From the NCBI GenBank assembly GCA_018268695.1, contig JAFDWD010000822.1, positions 1 to 16,808 of the forward strand: DNA of 16,808 bases. The letters are read 5' to 3'. Shown piece after piece: positions 1 through 11,573 of this stretch. This DNA is from Actinomycetota bacterium. GTDB lineage: Bacteria > Actinomycetota > Thermoleophilia > Solirubrobacterales > 70-9. Each line of letters starts with the position of its first letter. Position 1 is the stretch's first letter. A program made the position numbers and the translations under genes. A model generated the notes under the pieces. It was not told the origin of the DNA. It worked only from the letters and a program-made list of their open reading frames with translations, and searched no databases.

Positions 1-7
1 GTCTCAT
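1..7 (-). CDS. Start of the next gene of the operon (cut off by the window edge)
   Basis: An ATG at bases 7-5 of the minus strand shares one base with the TGA stop of the biotin carboxylase (TGATG). A good ribosome binding site, GGAGG at 17-13, lies 5 bases before it. Only two codons (Met-Arg) and one base are visible, so the product cannot be identified. Because the preceding biotin carboxylase has no carrier domain, a free biotin/lipoyl carrier protein or another carboxylase subunit would be a natural product here; this is inference. Confidence 0.45.
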
Positions 8-1485
8 CAGGGCCTCCACTCCCCCATCGCCGCGAGCGGCTCGGGAATCTCGAAGCGATGGTCGAAGCGCGGGCTCGCCAGCGCCGCGGCGGCCAGCAGC
101 AGGCGCGCCTCCTCGGCGGTGACCGGCGGCGCGACGAGCTCCTCGACGTGTTCGTCGAGGAAGCTGGTGGTCGTGTCGCCGGAGGCGAAGGCCGGGTGGG
201 CGAGCACGCGCTCGAGGTAGGCGGCGTTCGTCGTCAGCCCGAGCAGGACCGTCTCGCGGAGGATCTCGCGACTGCGCCGGATCGCGTCGTCGCGGTCGGC
301 GCCGGAGCCGATCACCTTGGCGATCATCGGGTCGAAGGAGGCCGAGACCTCCTGGCCCTCGATCGTCCCGTGGTCGACCCGCACGCCCGGTCCGGCGGGG
401 AAGTGGACCAGCTCGAGCCGGCCGGTGGCCGGCGCGAAGTTGGCGGCCGGGTCCTCGGCGTAGATCCGGCACTCGATCGCGTGGCCGGTCAACTCGACCG
501 CGGACTGGTCGTAGCCGAGCTCCTCGCCGGCGGCGATCCGCAGCTGCTCGGCGACGATGTCTTTGCCGGTGACCAGCTCGGTGACCGGGTGCTCGACCTG
601 GAGGCGGGTGTTCATCTCGAGGAAGTAGAAGTTCCGCTCGCCGTCGACGACCATCTCGATCGTCCCCGCCGAGACGTAGCCGACCGCCTTGGCGAGGTCG
701 ACCGCGCGGGCGCCCATCTCGGCCCGGGTCTGGGGATCGATGAAGGAGGACGGTGCCTCCTCGATCACCTTCTGGTAGCGGCGCTGGATCGAGCACTCGC
801 GCTCGCCCAGGTGCACGACGTTGCCGTGCGAGTCGGCCAGCACCTGCACCTCGATGTGGCGGGGGCGGTCGACGTAGCGCTCGACGAAGACGCGGCCGTC
901 GCCGAAGCTGGCGACCGCCTCCGAGGAGGCGAGGTCGAAGGCTTCGCGGCATTCCTCGGCCGACCGGGCGATCCGCATCCCCTTGCCGCCACCGCCGGCG
1001 CTCGCCTTCAGCAGGACCGGGTAGCCGACCTGCTCGGCGGCCGCCAGCGCCGCGTCGGCATCGGAGACGGCGCCGTCGGAGCCGGGCACCGTCGGCATCC
1101 CGGCCTTCTGGGCGATCGCCTTCGATTCGATCTTGTCCCCCATCGCCCGGATCGCGTCAGGCGGCGGCCCGATGAAGGCGATCCCGGCGTCGGCGACCGC
1201 CTGGGCGAAATCGGCGTTCTCCGAGAGGAAGCCGAAGCCCGGGTGGATCGCGGTGGCCCCGGTCTCCACCGCCGCGGCGATGATCGCCTCGGCATTCAGG
1301 TAGGCGCCGACCGGGGTGTCCCCGTGCAGCTCGACCGCCTCGCCGGCGTCGCGCACCGCCGGGCTTTCGCGGTCGAGCGCGTGGAAGACGGCGACGCTCG
1401 GGACCTCGAGCGCGCGCAGGGTGCGGATGATCCGCGCCGCGATCTCGCCGCGGTTGGCGACCAGGACCTTGTCCGGAAGCTTCAT
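7..1485 (-). CDS. Acyl-CoA carboxylase, stand-alone biotin carboxylase subunit
   Basis: 492-residue ATP-grasp biotin carboxylase (AccC type), which carboxylates protein-bound biotin with ATP and bicarbonate in the cytoplasm. Visible in order: the N-terminal [16 protein letters not shown] segment (residues 7-22), HPGFGFLSEN (81-90), the nucleotide-binding ASAGGGGKGM loop after Lys160 (161-170), and the active-site segment [14 protein letters not shown] (290-303). The Biotin_carb_C region runs to about 445. The chain stops about 45 residues later, so there is no BT or biotinyl domain and no (A/S)MKM motif, unlike the fused alpha subunit encoded at 5672-7627. The ATG overlaps the AtuA-family stop (ATGA) and follows a GAGG Shine-Dalgarno, indicating translational coupling. 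It must use a carrier protein encoded elsewhere, possibly by the gene starting at position 7. Whether it serves acetyl-, propionyl- or another CoA cannot be read from this subunit. Confidence 0.93.
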   Translation of the reverse strand: MKLPDKVLVANRGEIAARIIRTLRALEVPSVAVFHALDRESPAVRDAGEAVELHGDTPVGAYLNAEAIIAAAVETGATAIHPGFGFLSENADFAQAVADAGIAFIGPPPDAIRAMGDKIESKAIAQKAGMPTVPGSDGAVSDADAALAAAEQVGYPVLLKASAGGGGKGMRIARSAEECREAFDLASSEAVASFGDGRVFVERYVDRPRHIEVQVLADSHGNVVHLGERECSIQRRYQKVIEEAPSSFIDPQTRAEMGARAVDLAKAVGYVSAGTIEMVVDGERNFYFLEMNTRLQVEHPVTELVTGKDIVAEQLRIAAGEELGYDQSAVELTGHAIECRIYAEDPAANFAPATGRLELVHFPAGPGVRVDHGTIEGQEVSASFDPMIAKVIGSGADRDDAIRRSREILRETVLLGLTTNAAYLERVLAHPAFASGDTTTSFLDEHVEELVAPPVTAEEARLLLAAAALASPRFDHRFEIPEPLAAMGEWRP

Positions 1486-3266
1486 CGACCCGCCTCGAGC
1501 AGCGCCGCGACCTCGGCGTCGACCTCGATCGGCATCGTCAGCAGCATCGCCGCGTACGACTTCGCCTGCGGGTCGTAACGCAGGGTCGAGGTGCCGCCGG
1601 TGCCGCCGAGCACCTCGGTCATCACGATGTTGATCGCGTCGAGGCCCGGCACCGCCCAGCGCTTGACGACGGCGTCGTCGCGCAGGTTGTGGGCGAAGAA
1701 GGAGCCGACCCGCGCGGCGGTCACCTGTTCGGCGATCGTCGCCGCGAACTCCGGCCGGCGGGCGATCAGGCCGATGTTGGCGAGGTTGCCCTTGTCGCCG
1801 CTGCGCCCGTAGGCGAGCCGTTTGAGCGGCACCTTGGTGGTCCCGGAGAGGGTCGCCTTCGGCTCGTCGAGGACGGCCGTCCCCGGCTTCGCGTCAGGAT
1901 TGCCCGGCGAGAGCGAGAGCGGTACGTCCTCGCCCGCCATCGTCACCCGCGGTTCCAGCATCCCCTTGTCGACCAGCAGGTGGATGACGCGGAAGACCGG
2001 GGCGGGGCGCGGCCGGCCGGCGAAGAACCCGGTCATCCCCTGGGCGACCAGGCTGGTCGGGACGTACTCGCCGGAGAAGACCTCCACCCCGGCCCGCTCG
2101 GCGTGCAGGACGCCGAGCTTCACGACCACCTCGGTGGCCGCGTCGGGCATGCTCTTCTCGCCGTAGATGTCGCCGCCGCCGACCACCTCGAGCGAGGTCT
2201 CGCGGAAGGGCTCGAGGCCCTTCTCGGCGAGCAGCCGTTCGGAGCGGGCGAAGATCGCCTCGCCGGCGCGGCGGGCGCGGCCGGCCGCCTCGTAGCCGGC
2301 GAACATCGCCGTGGTCACGGCGCGGTAGCCGTCCTGGTGGGTCGCGGTCACCTTGTAGGTGCCGGTCGGGGCGCTGCCCTTGGCGCCGCTGGCGCGGACC
2401 CGGTCGGGCCCGACCTGCTCGAGCGCCACCTCGCGCCAGTCGCAGACCACCTCCGGCATCACGTAGGCGCCGGGGTCGCCGATCTCATAAAGGATCTGCT
2501 CGCCGACCGTCCCCGGGGTCACCAGGCCGCCGGTTCCGGGCGCCTTCGTGATCGTGACCGTGCCGTCCGCCTCGACCTCGGCGATCGGGTAGCCCATGTC
2601 CTCCCACCCCGGGACGCTCGACCAGTCGGTGAAGGTGCCGCCCGCGCACTGCGGGCCGCACTCGACGATGTGCCCGACGAGGGAGCCGGCGGCGAGCAGG
2701 TCGTGGTCGTCGTCGGACCAACCGAACTCGTGCATCAGCGGGCCGAGGACGACGGCCGCGTCGACGCAGCGGCCGGTGACGACGATGTCGGCGCCGGCGG
2801 CGAGGGCGGTCGCGATCGGCCGCGCGCCGAGATAGGCGTTCATGGTCGAGACGTCGGCGGGCAGCGGCTCGCCGGTGAACATGTCCTTGGCGCCGGCGCC
2901 GACCAGCTCGTCCACCTTCGGCAGCAGGTCGTCGCCGGTGACCGCGGCGACCTTGAGGTCGAGCCCGGCCTCCTTCACCGCCTCCTCGAAGGCGGCGGCG
3001 CAGGCGGCCGGGTTGAGCGCGCCGGCGTTGGTGACGACCGTGATCCCGCGCTCGGAGATCTCCGTCAGGTACGGCTTCAGCGCGGCGATCGCGTCGGGGA
3101 CGAAGCCCGCCGCGGGGTCCTTGGCGCGGGCGCGCGCCAGCAGCGCCATCGTGATCTCCGCCAGGTAGTCGGAGACCAGGTAGTCGAGGTCGTCCACGCG
3201 CAGGAGCTGCGCGACGGCCGATCGGGTGTCGCCCCAGAAAGCTGCCCAGCATCCGATCTTCGTCAC
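1482..3266 (-). CDS. AtuA-family (acyclic terpene utilization, DUF1446) protein
   Basis: 594-residue member of the AtuA family (Pfam AtuA, former DUF1446), close to the usual length of about 600. AtuA is encoded with geranyl-CoA carboxylase in Pseudomonas citronellol/geraniol degradation clusters, but its biochemical role is not established. The long N-terminal domain (about 1-450) carries the family-like segments DYLVSDYLAEITMA (28-41), VTNAGALNP (78-86) and VTGRCVDAAVVLGPL (163-177). A separate C-terminal domain (about 478-580) has the characteristic AYGRSGDKGNLANIGLIAR stretch (485-503). The GTG at 3266 is chosen because AAGGAG lies 5 bases before it and the family starts at TKIGCWAAFWGD. 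A further 52 upstream codons are open but Arg/Pro-rich and overlap the previous gene. It lies 34 bases after the hydratase/isomerase stop and overlaps the biotin carboxylase start. It is probably an accessory enzyme or CoA-intermediate handler for the carboxylase; that role is inference. Confidence 0.88.
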   Translation of the reverse strand: MTKIGCWAAFWGDTRSAVAQLLRVDDLDYLVSDYLAEITMALLARARAKDPAAGFVPDAIAALKPYLTEISERGITVVTNAGALNPAACAAAFEEAVKEAGLDLKVAAVTGDDLLPKVDELVGAGAKDMFTGEPLPADVSTMNAYLGARPIATALAAGADIVVTGRCVDAAVVLGPLMHEFGWSDDDHDLLAAGSLVGHIVECGPQCAGGTFTDWSSVPGWEDMGYPIAEVEADGTVTITKAPGTGGLVTPGTVGEQILYEIGDPGAYVMPEVVCDWREVALEQVGPDRVRASGAKGSAPTGTYKVTATHQDGYRAVTTAMFAGYEAAGRARRAGEAIFARSERLLAEKGLEPFRETSLEVVGGGDIYGEKSMPDAATEVVVKLGVLHAERAGVEVFSGEYVPTSLVAQGMTGFFAGRPRPAPVFRVIHLLVDKGMLEPRVTMAGEDVPLSLSPGNPDAKPGTAVLDEPKATLSGTTKVPLKRLAYGRSGDKGNLANIGLIARRPEFAATIAEQVTAARVGSFFAHNLRDDAVVKRWAVPGLDAINIVMTEVLGGTGGTSTLRYDPQAKSYAAMLLTMPIEVDAEVAALLEAGR

Positions 3267-3271
3267 GTCGT

Positions 3272-3277
3272 CTCCTT
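3272..3277 (-). promoter_or_regulatory. Shine-Dalgarno AAGGAG fixing the GTG start of the AtuA-family gene
   Basis: AAGGAG is followed by the 5-base spacer ACGAC and then GTG (3266-3264). It sits in the 34-base gap after the hydratase/isomerase stop codon and decides the start against the longer open frame that runs back into the upstream gene. Confidence 0.8.
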
Positions 3278-3300
3278 CGGGTGGTGGTGGTCTTCGGGGC

Positions 3301-4077
3301 TCATTTGGCCTCCTTCGCGAGGAAGGCGCGCATCGCGCCCAAGGTCTCGTCGGTGCCGAGCGCGATCGCCTGGGCCAGCGCCTCGATCCGCAGCGAGTCC
3401 TCGAGCGTCGTCCCCTCGCCACGGTTGATCAGGTCCTTGGCCATCGTCACCACGGCCGGGATCGGCGTCGCCAGCTTCTCCGCCAGGGCGAGCGCCTCGG
3501 CGAGCGCCTCGTCGGCGGTCTCGACCAGCCGGTTGACGATCCCGAGCTCCTTGGCGCGGGCGGCGTCGATCTCCTCGCCGAGCAGCATCAGCTCCTTCGC
3601 CGCGTGGGTGCCGACGGTGCGCGGCAGGAGCCAGGCGCTGCCCAGGTCCGGCACCAGGTTGCGGCGGACGAAGACCTGGCAGAAGCGGGCGTCGGCGGCG
3701 GCGACGATCAGGTCGCAGGCGAGCGCGGTCGAGAAGCCGGCCCCGTAGGCGGGCCCGCTGACCGCGGCGACGATCGGCAGGCGGCTGTTCCGCAGGCCGG
3801 TGATCAGGTGGTGGAGCGCGCCCATCACCGCGATCCGCGACTCCGGATCGCCGGCCTCGACGCGAGCGCCGACGTCGGCCAGGTCGCCGCCGGAGGAGAA
3901 GGCGCGGCCGGCGCCCGCGAGGACGACCGCTCGCACATCCGTGTCGGCCTCGAGCTCTCCCAATGCGGCGACGACGTCGGTGACCAGCTCGACCCCGAGC
4001 GCGTTCAGCCGCGCCTCGCGGTCCATGCGCAGGATCGCGACGTGACCGTCGCGACGCTCGATCGTGGCGTAGGACAA
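3301..4077 (-). CDS. Enoyl-CoA hydratase/isomerase family protein, PaaG-like active site
   Basis: 258-residue crotonase-fold protein (ECH_1). The oxyanion-hole segment AGAGRAFSSGGDL (54-66) and the second one, SGPAYGAGFSTALACDL (107-123), are present. The two glutamates that define true enoyl-CoA hydratases (Glu144 and Glu164 of the rat enzyme) align with Ser116 and Phe136 here. An aspartate, Asp144 in LVPDLGSAWLLPR, sits where PaaG-type isomerases carry theirs. An isomerase or another crotonase chemistry is therefore more likely than plain hydration; this is inferred from hand alignment. The TTG start is chosen because GAGGAGG lies 6 bases before it and the chain then begins as family members do (SYATIERRDGHVAILRMDR). 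The Shine-Dalgarno overlaps the stop codon of the carboxyltransferase gene. By context it acts on an unsaturated CoA ester before or after the carboxylation step. Confidence 0.88.
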   Translation of the reverse strand: MSYATIERRDGHVAILRMDREARLNALGVELVTDVVAALGELEADTDVRAVVLAGAGRAFSSGGDLADVGARVEAGDPESRIAVMGALHHLITGLRNSRLPIVAAVSGPAYGAGFSTALACDLIVAAADARFCQVFVRRNLVPDLGSAWLLPRTVGTHAAKELMLLGEEIDAARAKELGIVNRLVETADEALAEALALAEKLATPIPAVVTMAKDLINRGEGTTLEDSLRIEALAQAIALGTDETLGAMRAFLAKEAK

Positions 4078-4083
4078 GTTCGG

Positions 4084-4090
4084 CCTCCTC
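4084..4090 (-). promoter_or_regulatory. Strong Shine-Dalgarno GAGGAGG for a TTG start
   Basis: GAGGAGG lies 6 bases before the TTG at 4077-4075 and includes bases of the carboxyltransferase stop codon (TGAGGAGG). Its perfect spacing supports TTG as the true start and indicates translational coupling of the two genes. Confidence 0.8.
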
Positions 4091-5675
4091 ACATTCGAAA
4101 GATCGGCTGGCGGCGCTCGCCGAGCGGCGCGTTGGCGGTGACGGAAAGGGCCAGCCCGAGGACGTCGCGGGTGCTCTCGGGGGCGATCACGCCGTCGTCC
4201 CAGAGCCGGGCGCTGGCGTAATAGGGATGGCCCTGGGTCTCGTACTGCTCGCGGATCTCGGCTTTGCGGGCCTCGATCTTCTCCGGGTCGGTCTCCCGCC
4301 CGACCATGGTCAGGACGTTGGCCGCCTGCTCGCCGCCCATCACGCTGATGCGGGCGTTCGGCCACATCCAGAGGAAGCGCGGGAAGTAGGGCCGGCCGCA
4401 CATGCCGTAGTTGCCGGCGCCGAAGGAGCCGCCGACGATCACGGTCAGTTTCGGCACCCGCGCGGTGGCGACCGCGGCGATCATCTTGGCGCCGTCCTTG
4501 GCGATCCCGCCCGCCTCGGCGTCGCGACCGACCATGAAGCCGGTGATGTTCTGGAGGAAGACGAGGGGGATGCCGCGCTGGTCGCACATCTCGATGAAGT
4601 GGGCGCCCTTCAGCGCCGAGGAGGAGAAGATCACGCCCTGGTTGGCGAGGATCCCGACCGGGTGGCCGTGCAGGTGGGCGAAGCCGCAGACGAGCGTCGT
4701 CCCGTAGCGCGCCTTGAACTCGTGGAAGCGGCTGCCGTCGACGATCCGGGCGATGATCTCGCGCGGGTCGTACGGGGTGCGGATGTCGGCGGGGACGGCG
4801 CCGGTGAGGGTCGCCGGGTCGACCGCGGGCGGCTCGACCGCCTCGCGCGGCCAGGGGCAGGGGCGACGCTCGGGCAGGGTGGCGACGATCGAGCGGACGA
4901 TCGCCAGCGCCTCGCGGTCGTCGGCGGCGAGGTGGTCGGCGACGCCGGAGACCTTGGTGTGGAGCTCACCGCCGCCGAGATCCTCGGCGCTGACCTCTTC
5001 CCCGGTCGCGGCTTTCACCAGCGGCGGGCCGCCGAGGAAGATCGTCCCCTGTTCCTTGACGATGACGCTCTCGTCGCACATCGCCGGGACGTAGGCGCCG
5101 CCCGCGGTGCAGGAGCCGAGCACGGCGGCGATCTGCGGGATGCCCTCGGCGGAGAGGTTCGCCTGGTTGTAGAAGCTCTGGCCGAAGCCGCGGACGTCGG
5201 GGAAGAGCTCGTCCTGCAGCGGCAGGTAGCCGCCGCCGGAGTCGACCATGTAGACGCAGGGGAGCCGGTTCTGCAGGGCGATCTCCTGGGCGCGCGTGTG
5301 CTTGCGCGCGGTCATCGGGTAGTAGCTGCCGCCTTTGACCGTGGCGTCGTTGCAGACGATCATCACCTCGCGGCCCTTCACCCGGCCGATGCCGGTGATG
5401 ATCCCGGCGCCCGGCGCCTGGTCCTCGTACATCCCGTGGGCGGCGAGCTGGGAGAGCTCGAGGAAGGGCGAGCCGGGGTCGAGCAGCATTTCCACCCGGT
5501 CGCGGGGCAGCAGCTTGCCGCGGCTGACGTGGCGCTCGGCGGCGCGCTCGCCGCCGCCCGCGCGGACCCGCGCCCACTGGTCCTGGAGGTCGGCGGTCAG
5601 CTCCGCGAACGCCGCCTCGTTGGCGGCGAACTCCTCACTGGCCGGATCGGCGTGGCTGCGCAGGACGACGCTCAT
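4089..5675 (-). CDS. Acyl-CoA carboxylase carboxyltransferase (beta) subunit, methylcrotonyl/geranyl-CoA carboxylase type
   Basis: 528-residue carboxyltransferase (Pfam Carboxyl_trans), the usual length of MccB/LiuB/AtuC proteins. It moves the carboxyl group from carboxybiotin to an acyl-CoA. N-terminal crotonase-like half: [21 protein letters not shown] (113-133), [14 protein letters not shown] (141-154) and the oxyanion-forming [13 protein letters not shown] (187-199). C-terminal half: [21 protein letters not shown] (342-362), [11 protein letters not shown] (373-383), [16 protein letters not shown] (415-430). These features place it with methylcrotonyl-/geranyl-CoA carboxylases rather than propionyl-CoA or acetyl-CoA carboxylases. 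The ATG overlaps the stop of the fused alpha subunit (ATGA), so alpha and beta are made together, consistent with an alpha6beta6 holoenzyme. The exact substrate cannot be set by eye. No HMG-CoA lyase, isovaleryl-CoA dehydrogenase or citronellyl-CoA dehydrogenase gene lies in the window. Confidence 0.93.
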
Positions 5676-7627
5676 CCGACCGGCTCCAGCTCGACCAGCG
5701 ACTGGCCCTGGCGGACGCCTTCGCCGGCGGCGACGAGGACGTCGGCGACCGTCGCCTCGGTCGGCGCGGTCAGGGACATCTCCATCTTCATCGACTCGAT
5801 CACGACCAGGACCTGGCCCTCGGCGACGCTCTCGCCGGGGGCGACGCGGAGCTCGAGGACGGTGCCCGGCATCGGCGCCTCGAGCGAGCCCTGCGCCCCG
5901 GCCACGGCGCCCTCGACCACCGGCTCGACCAGGCGGAAGGCGAAGGCCTCGGGGCCGGCGGCAACCCAGGTTTCGCCGTCGTCGGTAGTGGCGAGCTCCC
6001 AACCCCAAGCCGGCCCGACGGGCAGCACCGTCTCCCGCACCTCCTGCACGCTTGTCTCGCATAGCGAGACAAGCGTGCAGGAGTTCGCGATCGTCACGGT
6101 GACCGGATCGCCGCCGCGGGGGGCAACCTCGAGCTTCAGCGGTGCGGGGCCGCTCAGGCGGAAGCCGACCAGGGAGCTCCAGGGGTCGTCGTCCTCACCA
6201 CTCCGCAGCTCCTCGCACTGTGCCGCGGCGAAGGCGGCCAGCGCCTCGCGTTTTTCGGACTCCGGCGGGAGCGCGGCGGCCTCGCCGCGGTCGATCAGGC
6301 CGGTGTCGATGTCCCCGGCACGGACGTCGTCGAGGCCGATCAGCCGCCGCAGGAAGCCGCCGTTGGTCGGCAACCCGAGCAGGCGCAGTTCGCCGAGGGC
6401 CAGGTCGAGCCGCTCGATCGCCGCTTCGCGATCGGCGGAATGCGCGATCACCTTCAGCAGCAGCGAGTCGTAGAAGGGGGTGACGGTGCTGCCCTCCTCG
6501 ACGCCGGAGTCGACGCGGACGCCGGGGCCGCTCGGCTCGCGGTAGCCGACCAGCTCGCCGGTGGCCGGGAGGAAGTCGACCGCGGGGTCCTCGGCGCAGA
6601 CGCGGACCTCGATCGCGTGGCCGTCGAAGGCGACCTCCTCCTGGGCAAAGGAAAGCTCCTCCCCCGCGGCGACGCGCAGCTGCTGTTCGACCAGGTCGAG
6701 GCCGGTGACCATCTCGGTCACCGGGTGCTCGACCTGCAGGCGCGCGTTGACCTCGAGGAAGAACCACTCGGAGGGATCGTCGGCGGAGACCAGGAACTCG
6801 ACCGTGCCGGCGCCGACGTAGCCGGCCTCGCGGGCGAGGGAGACGGCGGCCGCGGTGAGCGGCCCGCGCACCTCCGGGGCGATCGCCGAGGACGGCGTCT
6901 CCTCGACCACCTTCTGGTGGCGGCGCTGGAGGCTGCACTCGCGCTCGCCGAGGTGGACGACGTTGCCGTGGGAGTCGGCGAGGATCTGGACCTCGACGTG
7001 GCGGGCGCGCTCGACGTAGCGCTCGACCAGCAGCGAGTCGTCGCCGAAGCCCGCCAGCGCCTCGCGCCGGGCCGCGGCCAGGCCGTCGGGGAGCGCCGCG
7101 CCATCGCGGGCGATCCTCATCCCCCGCCCGCCGCCGCCGGCCGCGGCCTTGATCATCAGCGGCAGGCGCCCGGGGTCCTCGTCGACGAAAGCGACGATCT
7201 CCTGATCTTCCAGCCCTGGTCTCTGCAGCCCGGGCAGGACCGGCACGCCGAGGCGCTCGGCGAGCGTCTTCGCCGCGACCTTGTCGCCGAGCAGGCGGGT
7301 CGCCGCGGGCGGCGGGCCGATGAAGACGAGGCCGGCCGCCTCGCAGGCGGCGGCGAACTCGGCGTCCTCGGAGAGGAACCCATAACCCGGGTGGATCGCC
7401 CGGGCGCCGGTGGCAGCCGCCGCGGCGAGCACGCGCTCGGCGGAGAGGTAGGACTCGGCGGCGGTCGGCGGGCCGAGGCGGACCGCGCGGTCGGCGGCGC
7501 GCACGTGCGGCGCCGCGGCGTCGGCATCCGAGTAGACGGCGATCGATTCGATCCCCAGCCGGTGCAGCGTCCGGATCACCCGCAAGGCGATCTCACCACG
7601 GTTGGCGACCAGCACCGAGGCGAACAT
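5672..7627 (-). CDS. Acyl-CoA carboxylase alpha subunit (biotin carboxylase fused to biotin carrier domain), with an in-frame palindromic insert
   Basis: 651-residue MccA/AtuF/LiuD-type alpha subunit. The biotin carboxylase part spans about 1-445: [17 protein letters not shown] (4-20), [13 protein letters not shown] (79-91), glycine-rich [10 protein letters not shown] after Lys160 (161-170), [15 protein letters not shown] (291-305). A BT-like linker (about 480-570) follows, starting [13 protein letters not shown]. The biotinyl domain ends the protein: EAPMPGTV (583-590) and ESMKMEM, with biotinyl-lysine at 614; Ser replaces the commoner Ala before Met. Residues 516-529 ([14 protein letters not shown]) are encoded by a 43-base palindrome that recurs at 10972-11012, an apparent insertion that keeps the frame open. 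ATG 7627 is chosen for family fit ([12 protein letters not shown]) with GGAG 6 bases upstream. A second in-frame ATG at 7654 has the same Shine-Dalgarno arrangement and would add nine residues. It lies 70 bases after the ligase gene. Confidence 0.93.
6041..6083. repeat. Palindromic repeat element, copy 1, inside the carboxylase alpha gene
   Basis: A perfect inverted repeat with 20-base arms and a 3-base loop (ATA on the plus strand). The inner 18 bases of each arm (CCTGCACGCTTGTCTCGC on the left) are identical to those of the copy at 10972-11012. It lies wholly inside the coding frame of the alpha subunit and is read as [14 protein letters not shown]. No stop arises in that frame. It could form a very stable hairpin in the mRNA. 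The class resembles REP/MITE-like or Rickettsia palindromic element (RPE)-like insertions, but no known family could be assigned. Confidence 0.9.
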
Positions 7628-7630
7628 CGA

Positions 7631-7666
7631 CCGCTCCAAAGCAGAGGTAACCATTCTCCGCTCCAA
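7631..7666 (-). promoter_or_regulatory. Duplicated Shine-Dalgarno TTGGAGCGG before two in-frame ATG starts
   Basis: The 9-mer TTGGAGCGG occurs at 7666-7658 and again at 7639-7631, 27 bases (nine codons) apart. In each case GGAG stands 6 bases before an in-frame ATG (7654 and 7627). The inner start matches the family N-terminus better. The arrangement may allow two N-terminal forms or may be a neutral small duplication. Confidence 0.6.
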
Positions 7667-10079: not shown

Positions 10080-10970
10080 ATGGCGGTGGGCGAGGTCGGC
10101 GCCGAGGCGGTCGTCGTCGACTGCGGCAACGAGCTCGGCGAGACGCCGGTCTGGGACGCGGCGGCGGGCCTACTGCACTGGGTTGACATCTTCGCGGGTG
10201 CGGTGTGGAGCCTCGACCCGGCGGGCGGCGAGCCGCGCTACTTCGAGCACGGGACGGTGGTCGGGGCCGTGGTCCCGCGCGAGCGCGGCGGCCTGGTGCT
10301 CGGCGCCGAGCGCAGCCTCGTCGCCACCGAGCTCGACGGCAGCGGCGCCGAGACCTTGGCATCGGTCGAGCCCGACCGCCCCGAGAACCGCTTCAACGAC
10401 TGCCGCGTCGACCCCGCCGGCCGCTTCTTCGGCGGCACCAAAGTCAACGACCCCGACGTCGAGGGCCGCGGCGCCCTCTACCGCGTCGGCCCCGACCTCC
10501 AGCCCGTCGTCGCGATCCCCGACACCGGCATCGCCAACGGCATCGGCTGGAGCCCGACCGGGGACACGCTCTACTTCATCGACACGCCGCTCGCGCGGGT
10601 GGACGCCTACGACTACGAGGTCGCGACCGGTGAGATCGGCGCCCGCCGCACGGTCGCGAGCATCGACCCCGACGACGGCCTCCCCGACGGCCTCACGGTC
10701 GACGCCGAGGGAGGCATCTGGGTCGCCCTCGTCAACAACGGGGCGCTACGCCGCTACGACCCGAGCGGCGCCCTCGAAGCCGAGCTGCGGATGCCGGTCC
10801 GCAACCCGACCTGCCCCGGCTTCGGCGGCGAGGGCCTTCGAACCCTCTACGTGACGAGCGCCCACCTCCGCTCCGACCCGACCTACGCCGACGAGACCCC
10901 CCTGGCCGGAGCCCTCTTCGCCCTCGACGTCAGCGTCTCCGGCCTCCCCGAGCCCCCCTTCGCCGGCTGA
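10080..10970 (+). CDS. SMP-30/gluconolactonase/LRE-like hydrolase
   Basis: 296-residue six-bladed beta-propeller of the SMP-30/gluconolactonase family (Pfam SGL), typical length. The expected divalent metal ligands are visible by comparison with human SMP30: Glu21 in ELGETPVW (18-25), Asn153 in GIANGIGWSP (150-159) and Asp203 in GLPDGLTVDAEGGIWVA (200-216). The substrate-side motif ENRFNDCRVDPAGRFF (102-117) is also conserved. Such enzymes open lactones, usually sugar lactones, though some family members act on other esters. No signal peptide is seen, so it is cytoplasmic. Its ATG follows the hydratase stop by 2 bases, indicating co-translation. The close pairing with a hydratase hints at a lactone formed from a hydroxyacyl intermediate, but that is inference. 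It ends just before the palindromic repeat at 10972. Confidence 0.92.
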   Translation: MAVGEVGAEAVVVDCGNELGETPVWDAAAGLLHWVDIFAGAVWSLDPAGGEPRYFEHGTVVGAVVPRERGGLVLGAERSLVATELDGSGAETLASVEPDRPENRFNDCRVDPAGRFFGGTKVNDPDVEGRGALYRVGPDLQPVVAIPDTGIANGIGWSPTGDTLYFIDTPLARVDAYDYEVATGEIGARRTVASIDPDDGLPDGLTVDAEGGIWVALVNNGALRRYDPSGALEAELRMPVRNPTCPGFGGEGLRTLYVTSAHLRSDPTYADETPLAGALFALDVSVSGLPEPPFAG

Positions 10971-10971
10971 G

Positions 10972-11012
10972 CCCTGCACGCTTGTCTCGCTATGCGAGAC
11001 AAGCGTGCAGGG
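10972..11012. repeat. Palindromic repeat element, copy 2, between convergent genes
   Basis: A perfect inverted repeat with 19-base arms and a 3-base loop (TAT). The inner 18 bases of each arm are identical to the copy at 6041-6083, and the loop is its reverse complement, so the two copies lie in opposite orientations. It begins 2 bases after the SMP-30 stop and lies 21 bases from the stop of the convergent secreted-protein gene. It may act as a bidirectional transcription barrier, but it has no T-tract (GGGGGCGCG follows), so it is not a standard intrinsic terminator. Confidence 0.9.
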
Positions 11013-11033: not shown

Positions 11034-11573
11034 CTACTCGCAGAAGGCTGGTGCGGGGACCGCTATCGCTTCGACGGTGCGGGTTCCGGGTTCGACGATG
11101 AGGGTCATCTTCGGGTGGGTGAGGTTCGGGATCCAGAGGAAGCCCTGGGGGAACGGATCGGCCGTTCCGGGTGCCTGGTAGAGGGCGTGGGGATATGCCG
11201 TCCGCGCTTCGGAGGCGGTCGATCCGATGGCGATGTGCCGGGCGGTTTCGGCGCCGCCTTCGATCGTCAGACCGGTCAATCCGTGGCCGTGGGCGGCAAA
11301 GGTCGCCCAGCCTCGCAGCGGCGCCCGCAGCGGAGCGACCCGCTGCCCGGGTTCGAGCTCGCAACCCTTGCGCAGGTTGCCGATCAGGTTCTTCTGGCGC
11401 AGGGCGGCAGGGGCAGTGCCGAGCCGCAGAGCGCCGACGCCGCTGGTAGTCACGACCGGAGTCTTTGCCGCCGGTGCCGCGGCGGTGGCGGTGGCCGAGG
11501 CCGTCACGGCGGTGACGGCGACCAGCAGGATGCTCAGGACGGAGAGACGCCCGATCCGGGCTCGCTTGATCAT
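11034..11573 (-). CDS. Small secreted protein of unknown function
   Basis: 179 residues; the family is not recognised. It has a clear signal peptide: basic KRARIGR (3-9), hydrophobic LSVLSILLVAVTAVTASA (10-27), then an Ala/Thr-rich cleavage region near 27-36 without a lipobox cysteine, so it is probably exported and soluble. The mature part has a GVGALRLGTAPAALR segment (45-59) and a weaker echo IAIGSTASEARTAYP (114-128). This is the G-x-LxLG-x-t-x-aeAr pattern common in actinobacterial secreted proteins of unknown role. Two cysteines (71 and 178) could form a disulfide. It stands alone between two gene blocks. No good Shine-Dalgarno precedes the ATG, but TAGCCT lies 5 bases before it, a possible -10 for a near-leaderless transcript. 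It is probably unrelated to the surrounding catabolic genes. Confidence 0.75.
   Translation of the reverse strand: MIKRARIGRLSVLSILLVAVTAVTASATATAAAPAAKTPVVTTSGVGALRLGTAPAALRQKNLIGNLRKGCELEPGQRVAPLRAPLRGWATFAAHGHGLTGLTIEGGAETARHIAIGSTASEARTAYPHALYQAPGTADPFPQGFLWIPNLTHPKMTLIVEPGTRTVEAIAVPAPAFCE

Follow-up and report, generated by a model that had tools for sequence, protein, structure and literature searches.

The stretch of DNA analysed here, 16,808 nucleotides of a contig from an Actinomycetota bacterium (hereafter the window), raises the question of how a long perfect palindrome came to lie inside the reading frame of an acyl-CoA carboxylase gene. The segment 6041-6083 very probably belongs to a clade-specific short palindromic repeat family, one member of which has been copied into a variable loop of surface type in the carboxylase, where it is translated. 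We refer to this family by our own label, F2. The window contains the following relevant features:

6041..6083, unstranded: F2 palindrome, coding copy, with 20-bp arms and an ATA loop
6048-6076: F2 core of the coding copy, ACGCTTGTC-11nt-GACAAGCGT
6041..6082, minus strand: 14-residue peptide encoded in frame by the insert, within the alpha-subunit BT domain
5675..7633, minus strand: host gene, acyl-CoA carboxylase alpha subunit with biotin carboxylase, BT and biotinyl domains; start codon provisional
10972..11012, unstranded: F2 palindrome, intergenic copy, with 19-bp arms and a TAT loop; a stop codon lies just before it (10968-10970)
10086..10970, plus strand: SMP-30/gluconolactonase-like (SGL) gene, upstream neighbour of the intergenic copy; start approximate
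11034..11573, minus strand: ORF of 179 aa that converges on the intergenic copy; without a Pfam match at E 0.001

The inverted repeat at 6041-6083 is perfect (20+3+20), with 6041-6060 being the exact reverse complement of 6064-6083, and reads CTCCTGCACGCTTGTCTCGC-ATA-GCGAGACAAGCGTGCAGGAG, with the ATA loop at 6061-6063. A preliminary description of this DNA had given the position, the 43-base length, the 20-base arms and the loop exactly, and had reported a recurrence at 10972, where we found the copy with 19-bp perfect arms. The loop of that copy reads TAT, which places it in the inverse orientation relative to the coding copy. In 60 Markov-1 surrogates of the window, with loops of 3-10 nt allowed, no perfect arms exceeded 13 bp, and the 20-bp arms are thus far beyond chance. 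The 14 translated residues, two of them cysteines, are numbered 516-529, as described before, if the protein starts at MFASV, and 518-531 in the 653-aa translation. The open frame and the codon use suggest that the alpha gene is translated through the insert.

The insert had been assigned to the linker/BT region, and it was located inside the Pfam domain BT_MCC_alpha (463-570), ahead of the biotinyl domain (584-649). Among the best 120 of 7998 homologues of the alpha subunit, the top match was a metagenome protein with 87% identity (P0001); further down came a protein from a Solirubrobacterales MAG (P0018, 79%), one from Conexibacter (P0024, 68%), and the subunits of Solirubrobacteraceae MAGs and Patulibacter, with approximately 61-64% identity. 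The peptide patterns of F2, or of a second palindrome termed F1 (see below), occurred within residues 441-600 in none of these best 120, and the alignment of the window subunit with 16 homologues (17 sequences) placed the insert at 516-529 in a loop of variable length. The DNA comparison with the closest genome, G516, likewise showed a variable loop at the insert site. Window positions 1-7618 are colinear with contig C160 of that genome, at 87.9% DNA identity over 7.6 kb, which identifies the source organism as a relative within or near Solirubrobacterales. By hand reading, 51 nt in the window correspond to 15 nt in G516 between the codons of the preceding strand and GAGACGGTG, and this net gain of 36 nt bears out the earlier proposal that the insert must be a multiple of three despite the 43-nt palindrome. 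Downstream of the insert, another 21 nt are absent, which implies more than one indel and no unique insert boundaries; since the loop that holds the empty site evolves fast, the exact boundaries are uncertain. The AlphaFold model of the subunit had a mean pLDDT of 75.7, with low confidence at the insert (528-532). The surrounding cluster (7-7633) comprises two biotin carboxylase genes, an AtuA-type gene, an enoyl-CoA hydratase gene and a carboxyltransferase gene.

The family to which the palindrome belongs emerged from searches with patterns of different width. The exact inner arms of the window copy, with GC beside the loop, occurred in two stretches among 84,980 species genomes and in two stretches among viral contigs, none with the family spacing, and all four were judged unrelated. 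This pattern was too narrow and missed the family, which was revealed by a 3-mismatch search and then by a shorter-arm search. The 3-mismatch search of the 232 genomes of the order Solirubrobacterales yielded one relative, in G512, again intragenic. The arms of F2 are ACGCTTGTC and GACAAGCGT, 11 nt apart. The exact-arm pattern (ACGCTTGTC-N3..25-GACAAGCGT), run on the same 232 genomes, matched five of them: G514 at 41 places (only part of which were listed individually), G510 at two, and G505, G512 and G649 at one each. The spacing was different in the G649 match and in one G510 match, and these two were not counted as typical F2. The reversed pattern gave no match in any of the 232 genomes, and G516 contained no exact-arm match. 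A reversed-pattern control with up to four mismatches also yielded 0 matches. Of 399 genomes searched across the class, 4 were positive, each of them already known from the order. Viral contigs gave no match to a 12-nt arm pattern, the plasmids and phages searched held no match, and the window had no match to Rfam at gathering scores. F2 is a new palindromic repeat family in that no description of it was found in the open-access literature, as judged by titles and the starts of abstracts; on the same basis, searches of that literature for palindromes in Solirubrobacter, Solirubrobacterales and Thermoleophilia, and for coding palindromes in general, turned up no such elements in this group. A palindrome in G516 with TCGCTTGTA..TACAAGCGA-like arms (L169:14232-14275) is possibly a distant relative of F2.

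The DNA examined for individual copies comprised about 1.03 Mb of the roughly 4.2 Mb of G514, together with portions of G510 and individual loci. The spacing was tested independently by counting the 9-nt arm in the 1.03 Mb of G514: with both arms counted, 45 of 46 had a mate (≤3 mismatches) exactly 11 nt away. Fixed 11-nt spacing and at most two arm mismatches defined a set of 30 distinct copies (24 in G514, two in G510, one each in G505 and G512, and two in the window), which are related to one another and not independent. Their consensus is CCCG-ACGCTTGTC...GACAAGCGT-CGGG, the window having TGC...GCA; the core spans 29 nt, and about 35-45 nt with the outer arms. The loop centre is ATA in 26 of the 30, both window copies among them, the exceptions being L022, L056, L064 and L104:12746. 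The preliminary description had called the palindrome a mobile-type element and had proposed a count of copies in related genomes; it proved to belong to a dispersed family whose copies in such genomes are both coding and non-coding. This dispersal suggests that the palindrome may still be mobile at present.

Copies within genes were called using a codon model trained on 171 long ORFs of G514. Six of the 30 copies were strictly intragenic, or seven when the copy in the G510 E2 acyltransferase is included; it fell below the score threshold on one side and was added by domain layout, as it lies between the E3-binding and catalytic domains. The intragenic copies are distributed as follows:

DAO/ThiO-like oxidase: G512 and G514
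BirA-type biotin ligase: G514
Gfo/Idh oxidoreductase: G514
glycosyltransferase ORF: G514, insert outside the Pfam domain, called by codon score alone
E2 acyltransferase linker: G510
acyl-CoA carboxylase alpha subunit: window

An extra copy, outside the set of 30, lies in the E2 linker of G514. Two of the 30 occupy C-terminal ORF tails (L088:14335 and L113:16838), and their host genes each hold a second, interior F2 copy. The copy at L111:17777 had at first been favoured as intragenic by its frame score and was dropped, its ORF being only 15 codons long. The intragenic copies use all three forward frames and are accordingly read as unrelated peptides (TLV..TSV, RLS..QA and DAC..DKR). All six frames were free of stops in 21 of the 30 copies, compared with 14.7% of mirror-shuffled palindromes; seven further copies were open in five frames and two in four, and both window copies are open in five.

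The two arms of the copies have remained complementary. In the 30-copy set, 78.1% of the pair cells were paired, compared with 38-47% after sliding the partners by 1-3 columns. Cells changed on both sides numbered 52 (shuffled mean 32.4) and the covariation score was 0.191 (0.119 in shuffles), values that none of 500 shuffles attained. Two of the five measures did not stand out, namely the number of pairs changed on both sides (13 versus 11.2, with 42 of 500 shuffles as high) and the number of further pair types (32 versus 29.4, 93 of 500). These statistics come from related copies, 24 of the 30 from G514. The core pairs are nearly invariant, and the covariation support stems from the outer and inner pairs.

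One other explanation, to which we give a limited chance, is that F2 is an ordinary REP or terminator-type RNA hairpin, which the host maintains at the ends of genes, the coding copies being accidents without wider meaning. In its favour, both strands of both window copies were predicted to fold strongly as RNA (-44.8 to -53.6 kcal/mol, with none of 200 shuffles folding equally well in each of the four cases), and 21 of the 30 copies were not found within or at the tail of ORFs. The copy at 10972-11012 begins right after a stop codon and sits between convergent genes, a position typical of REPs according to PMC3733652. The REPs of the GTAG and CGTC super-families, as presented there, are similar palindromes of 20-40 bp, mostly intergenic and at 3' ends, some of them intragenic. 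The same source records intragenic REPs in several species, and intragenic palindromes as such are therefore not new. With regard to the CGTC type, 20 of the 22 G514 copies counted end in CGTC and both window copies end in CGTG; the word 'Actinobacteria' is absent from the main text of that paper. A terminator within the genes for the carboxylase, BirA, ThiO or E2 would be harmful, yet in-frame copies are present in all of them. Moreover, a host function leaves unexplained why one genome has 41 copies and its relatives none or few.

It is also unlikely that F2 is a MITE or a REP moved by a known class of transposase, through the terminal repeats of an insertion sequence or through a RAYT, even though its copies are dispersed, uniform in length and non-autonomous, and REPs elsewhere have been linked to RAYTs (PMC3733652). 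The RAYT domain Y1_Tnp (PF01797) was detected in none of six multi-contig draft genomes, whereas 5 of 14 controls were positive, and the F2 hairpin differs from GTAG REPs in having no GTAG tag at either end of the consensus. Lone arms were nearly absent (1 of 46 in the 1.03 Mb of G514), which, for that part of the genome, disfavours F2 arms as the ends of a longer element. PF01797 was the one transposase family searched for, in these six genomes. That no mobilising gene for F2 was found also counts against the reading preferred here, as do the failure to define a target-site duplication (the closest genome, G516, has 87.9% DNA identity) and the lack of exact-arm matches and of a raised palindrome density in G516.

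The sites equivalent to the intragenic copies were then compared between genomes. For ThiO, a search that matched 50 of 50 family genomes, some by distant paralogues only, provided 20 loci for examination. The same turn of the protein carries F2 in G512 and G514. At this turn G510 has a perfect 18-bp palindrome with another sequence and G505 an apparently decayed version of it; longer irregular inserts are found in G506, G511, G515 and G516, and no insert in G509, G519, G520 and G521. For BirA, 44 of 50 genomes were matched and the 12 best loci (L132-L143) were examined. A clear in-frame palindrome was present in the BirA loop at seven of the 12, a decayed one at one and none at four (G509, G511, G516 and G519), with at least four types represented: F2 in G514, F1 (GCTGTTCCTTATG) in G510 and G512, a large palindrome with the loop cctccccgctgtt in G506, G515 and G520 (one base shorter in G520), and yet another palindrome in G508. 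The arms of the G515 palindrome are perfect over 27 bp of coding DNA. The decayed F1 in G513 was recognised by sequence, its pairing score of 9 not exceeding the background (73 of 400 random windows reach 9). At L137, L138 and L142, in three genomes, the large coding hairpins have a conserved loop around cctccccgctgtt and stems that differ yet remain largely complementary. At the protein level only, the F1 peptide pattern (VPY/VPF..RNS) was found in 56 and the F2 pattern in four, including the query, of 120 listed BirA homologues, the loop being parsable in 104 of them. In E2, one linker site is occupied by F2 in both G510 and G514, and the element is missing from it in G511, G512 and G516. 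Such sharing of sites between unrelated palindromes is unusual.

The comparison bears on the idea that the inserted peptide was selected for a function in the protein, which we regard as improbable. The insert sites are loops and linkers, where new residues would be usable, and the peptide in the window contributes two cysteines; nevertheless, F2 is read in three frames as unrelated peptides, and the BirA loop accepts palindromes that are themselves unrelated. An assembly artefact or a chance palindrome can practically be dismissed, since metagenome assemblies may be misjoined at repeats but F2 is present in several separate genomes, the gene aligns to G516 on both flanks of the insert within a single colinear block of 7.6 kb, and no surrogate approached the arm length observed.

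We therefore return to 6041-6083 as a genuine coding member of a new family of palindromic repeats in an unexpected bacterial group. As to how such a family might spread, an enzyme that would act in trans and would not be a detectable Y1/RAYT transposase would copy the hairpin DNA, probably while the latter is single-stranded and exposed at replication forks. Frame-keeping insertions in loops and linkers would survive because the palindrome is mostly stop-free, and others would end up between genes or be lost; the positions of the survivors would thus follow from selection against stops and frameshifts together with the tolerance of loops. The complementarity of the arms may be kept because the mobilising step requires a hairpin, or because template switching, a process by which one arm of a palindrome can be repaired from the other, restores it. 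More tentatively, many unrelated families of coding palindromes in some Solirubrobacterales might insert time after time into a small shared set of loops (that of BirA, the ThiO turn and perhaps the E2 linker) via an undescribed, non-RAYT mechanism that senses hairpin shape more than sequence, a possibility that we hold to be real but rather doubtful. If it were true, the biotin ligase hot spot would be an independent parallel of that in Rickettsia and Wolbachia, and the mechanism would be general in bacteria.

The nearest systems in behaviour are the Rickettsia and Wolbachia palindromic elements (RPE and WPE), which PMC2229807 and PMC3767692 describe as dispersed palindromes inserted in frame at solvent-exposed places of conserved genes and also present between genes. 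F2 resembles them in lying in frame within conserved protein genes and in having copies both inside and outside genes, as exemplified by 6041 and 10972 in the window. The biotin ligase gene, in which WPE and an extended RPE-4 occupy the same region in the account of PMC3767692, is a hot spot in the genomes compared here too. In contrast to the symmetric F2 of about 35-45 bp, RPEs of the RPE-1 type measure about 100-150 bp (PMC2229807 and PMC3767692), although RPE-4 and RPE-6 have been treated as short CGTC-type REPs in PMC3733652. The sequence of F2 is also different and its host belongs to Actinomycetota; the comparison concerns behaviour, and homology is not claimed. F2 works like the coding palindromes of Rickettsia and Wolbachia but is probably a separate family. 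Perfect inverted repeats within protein-coding genes are likewise described for hairworm mitochondria in PMC6649704, although those differ from F2 in being mitochondrial and up to 284 bp long.

The best-known coding palindromes are those of the obligate intracellular Rickettsiales, in which reduced selection could account for them. To our knowledge, Solirubrobacterales are not noted for an obligate intracellular life style, and the present set would show that endosymbionts are not the only bacteria in which enzymes gain peptides via coding palindromes. In two natural pairs (the alpha subunits of the window and G516, and the BirA proteins of G514 and G511) one member has an insert and the other lacks it, so that the cost of carrying it can be tested directly. 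The steep range of copy numbers, from 41 in G514 to none by the exact pattern in G516, offers a comparative route to a putative mobilising gene.

The overall load of palindromes (arms ≥14, ≤1 mismatch) was 71.9 per Mb in the G514 sample and 121.8 in G510 (386 kb), and 32.9 in G516 (8 in 243 kb) versus 30.0 in the control G437 (3 in 100 kb). Palindrome richness therefore holds for G510 and G514 and not for G516, whose density is no higher than that of the control. A Markov sequence of 200 kb contained no palindromes of this kind. The 74 palindromes of G514 fell by single linkage into clusters of 26 (F1-like), 17 (F2), 5, 4 and 2, with 20 remaining single, and 5 of 56 non-F2 palindromes were scored as intragenic. 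In G510 (L172-L189 and L115-L117), long palindromes of several families were observed, including CTGTTCCTTATGG, GATGGGCCGAAAACTCAAGC, GCGTTCCGTACTTTGACCCTGC and GCGTTCGCACTTTGCCGTA.
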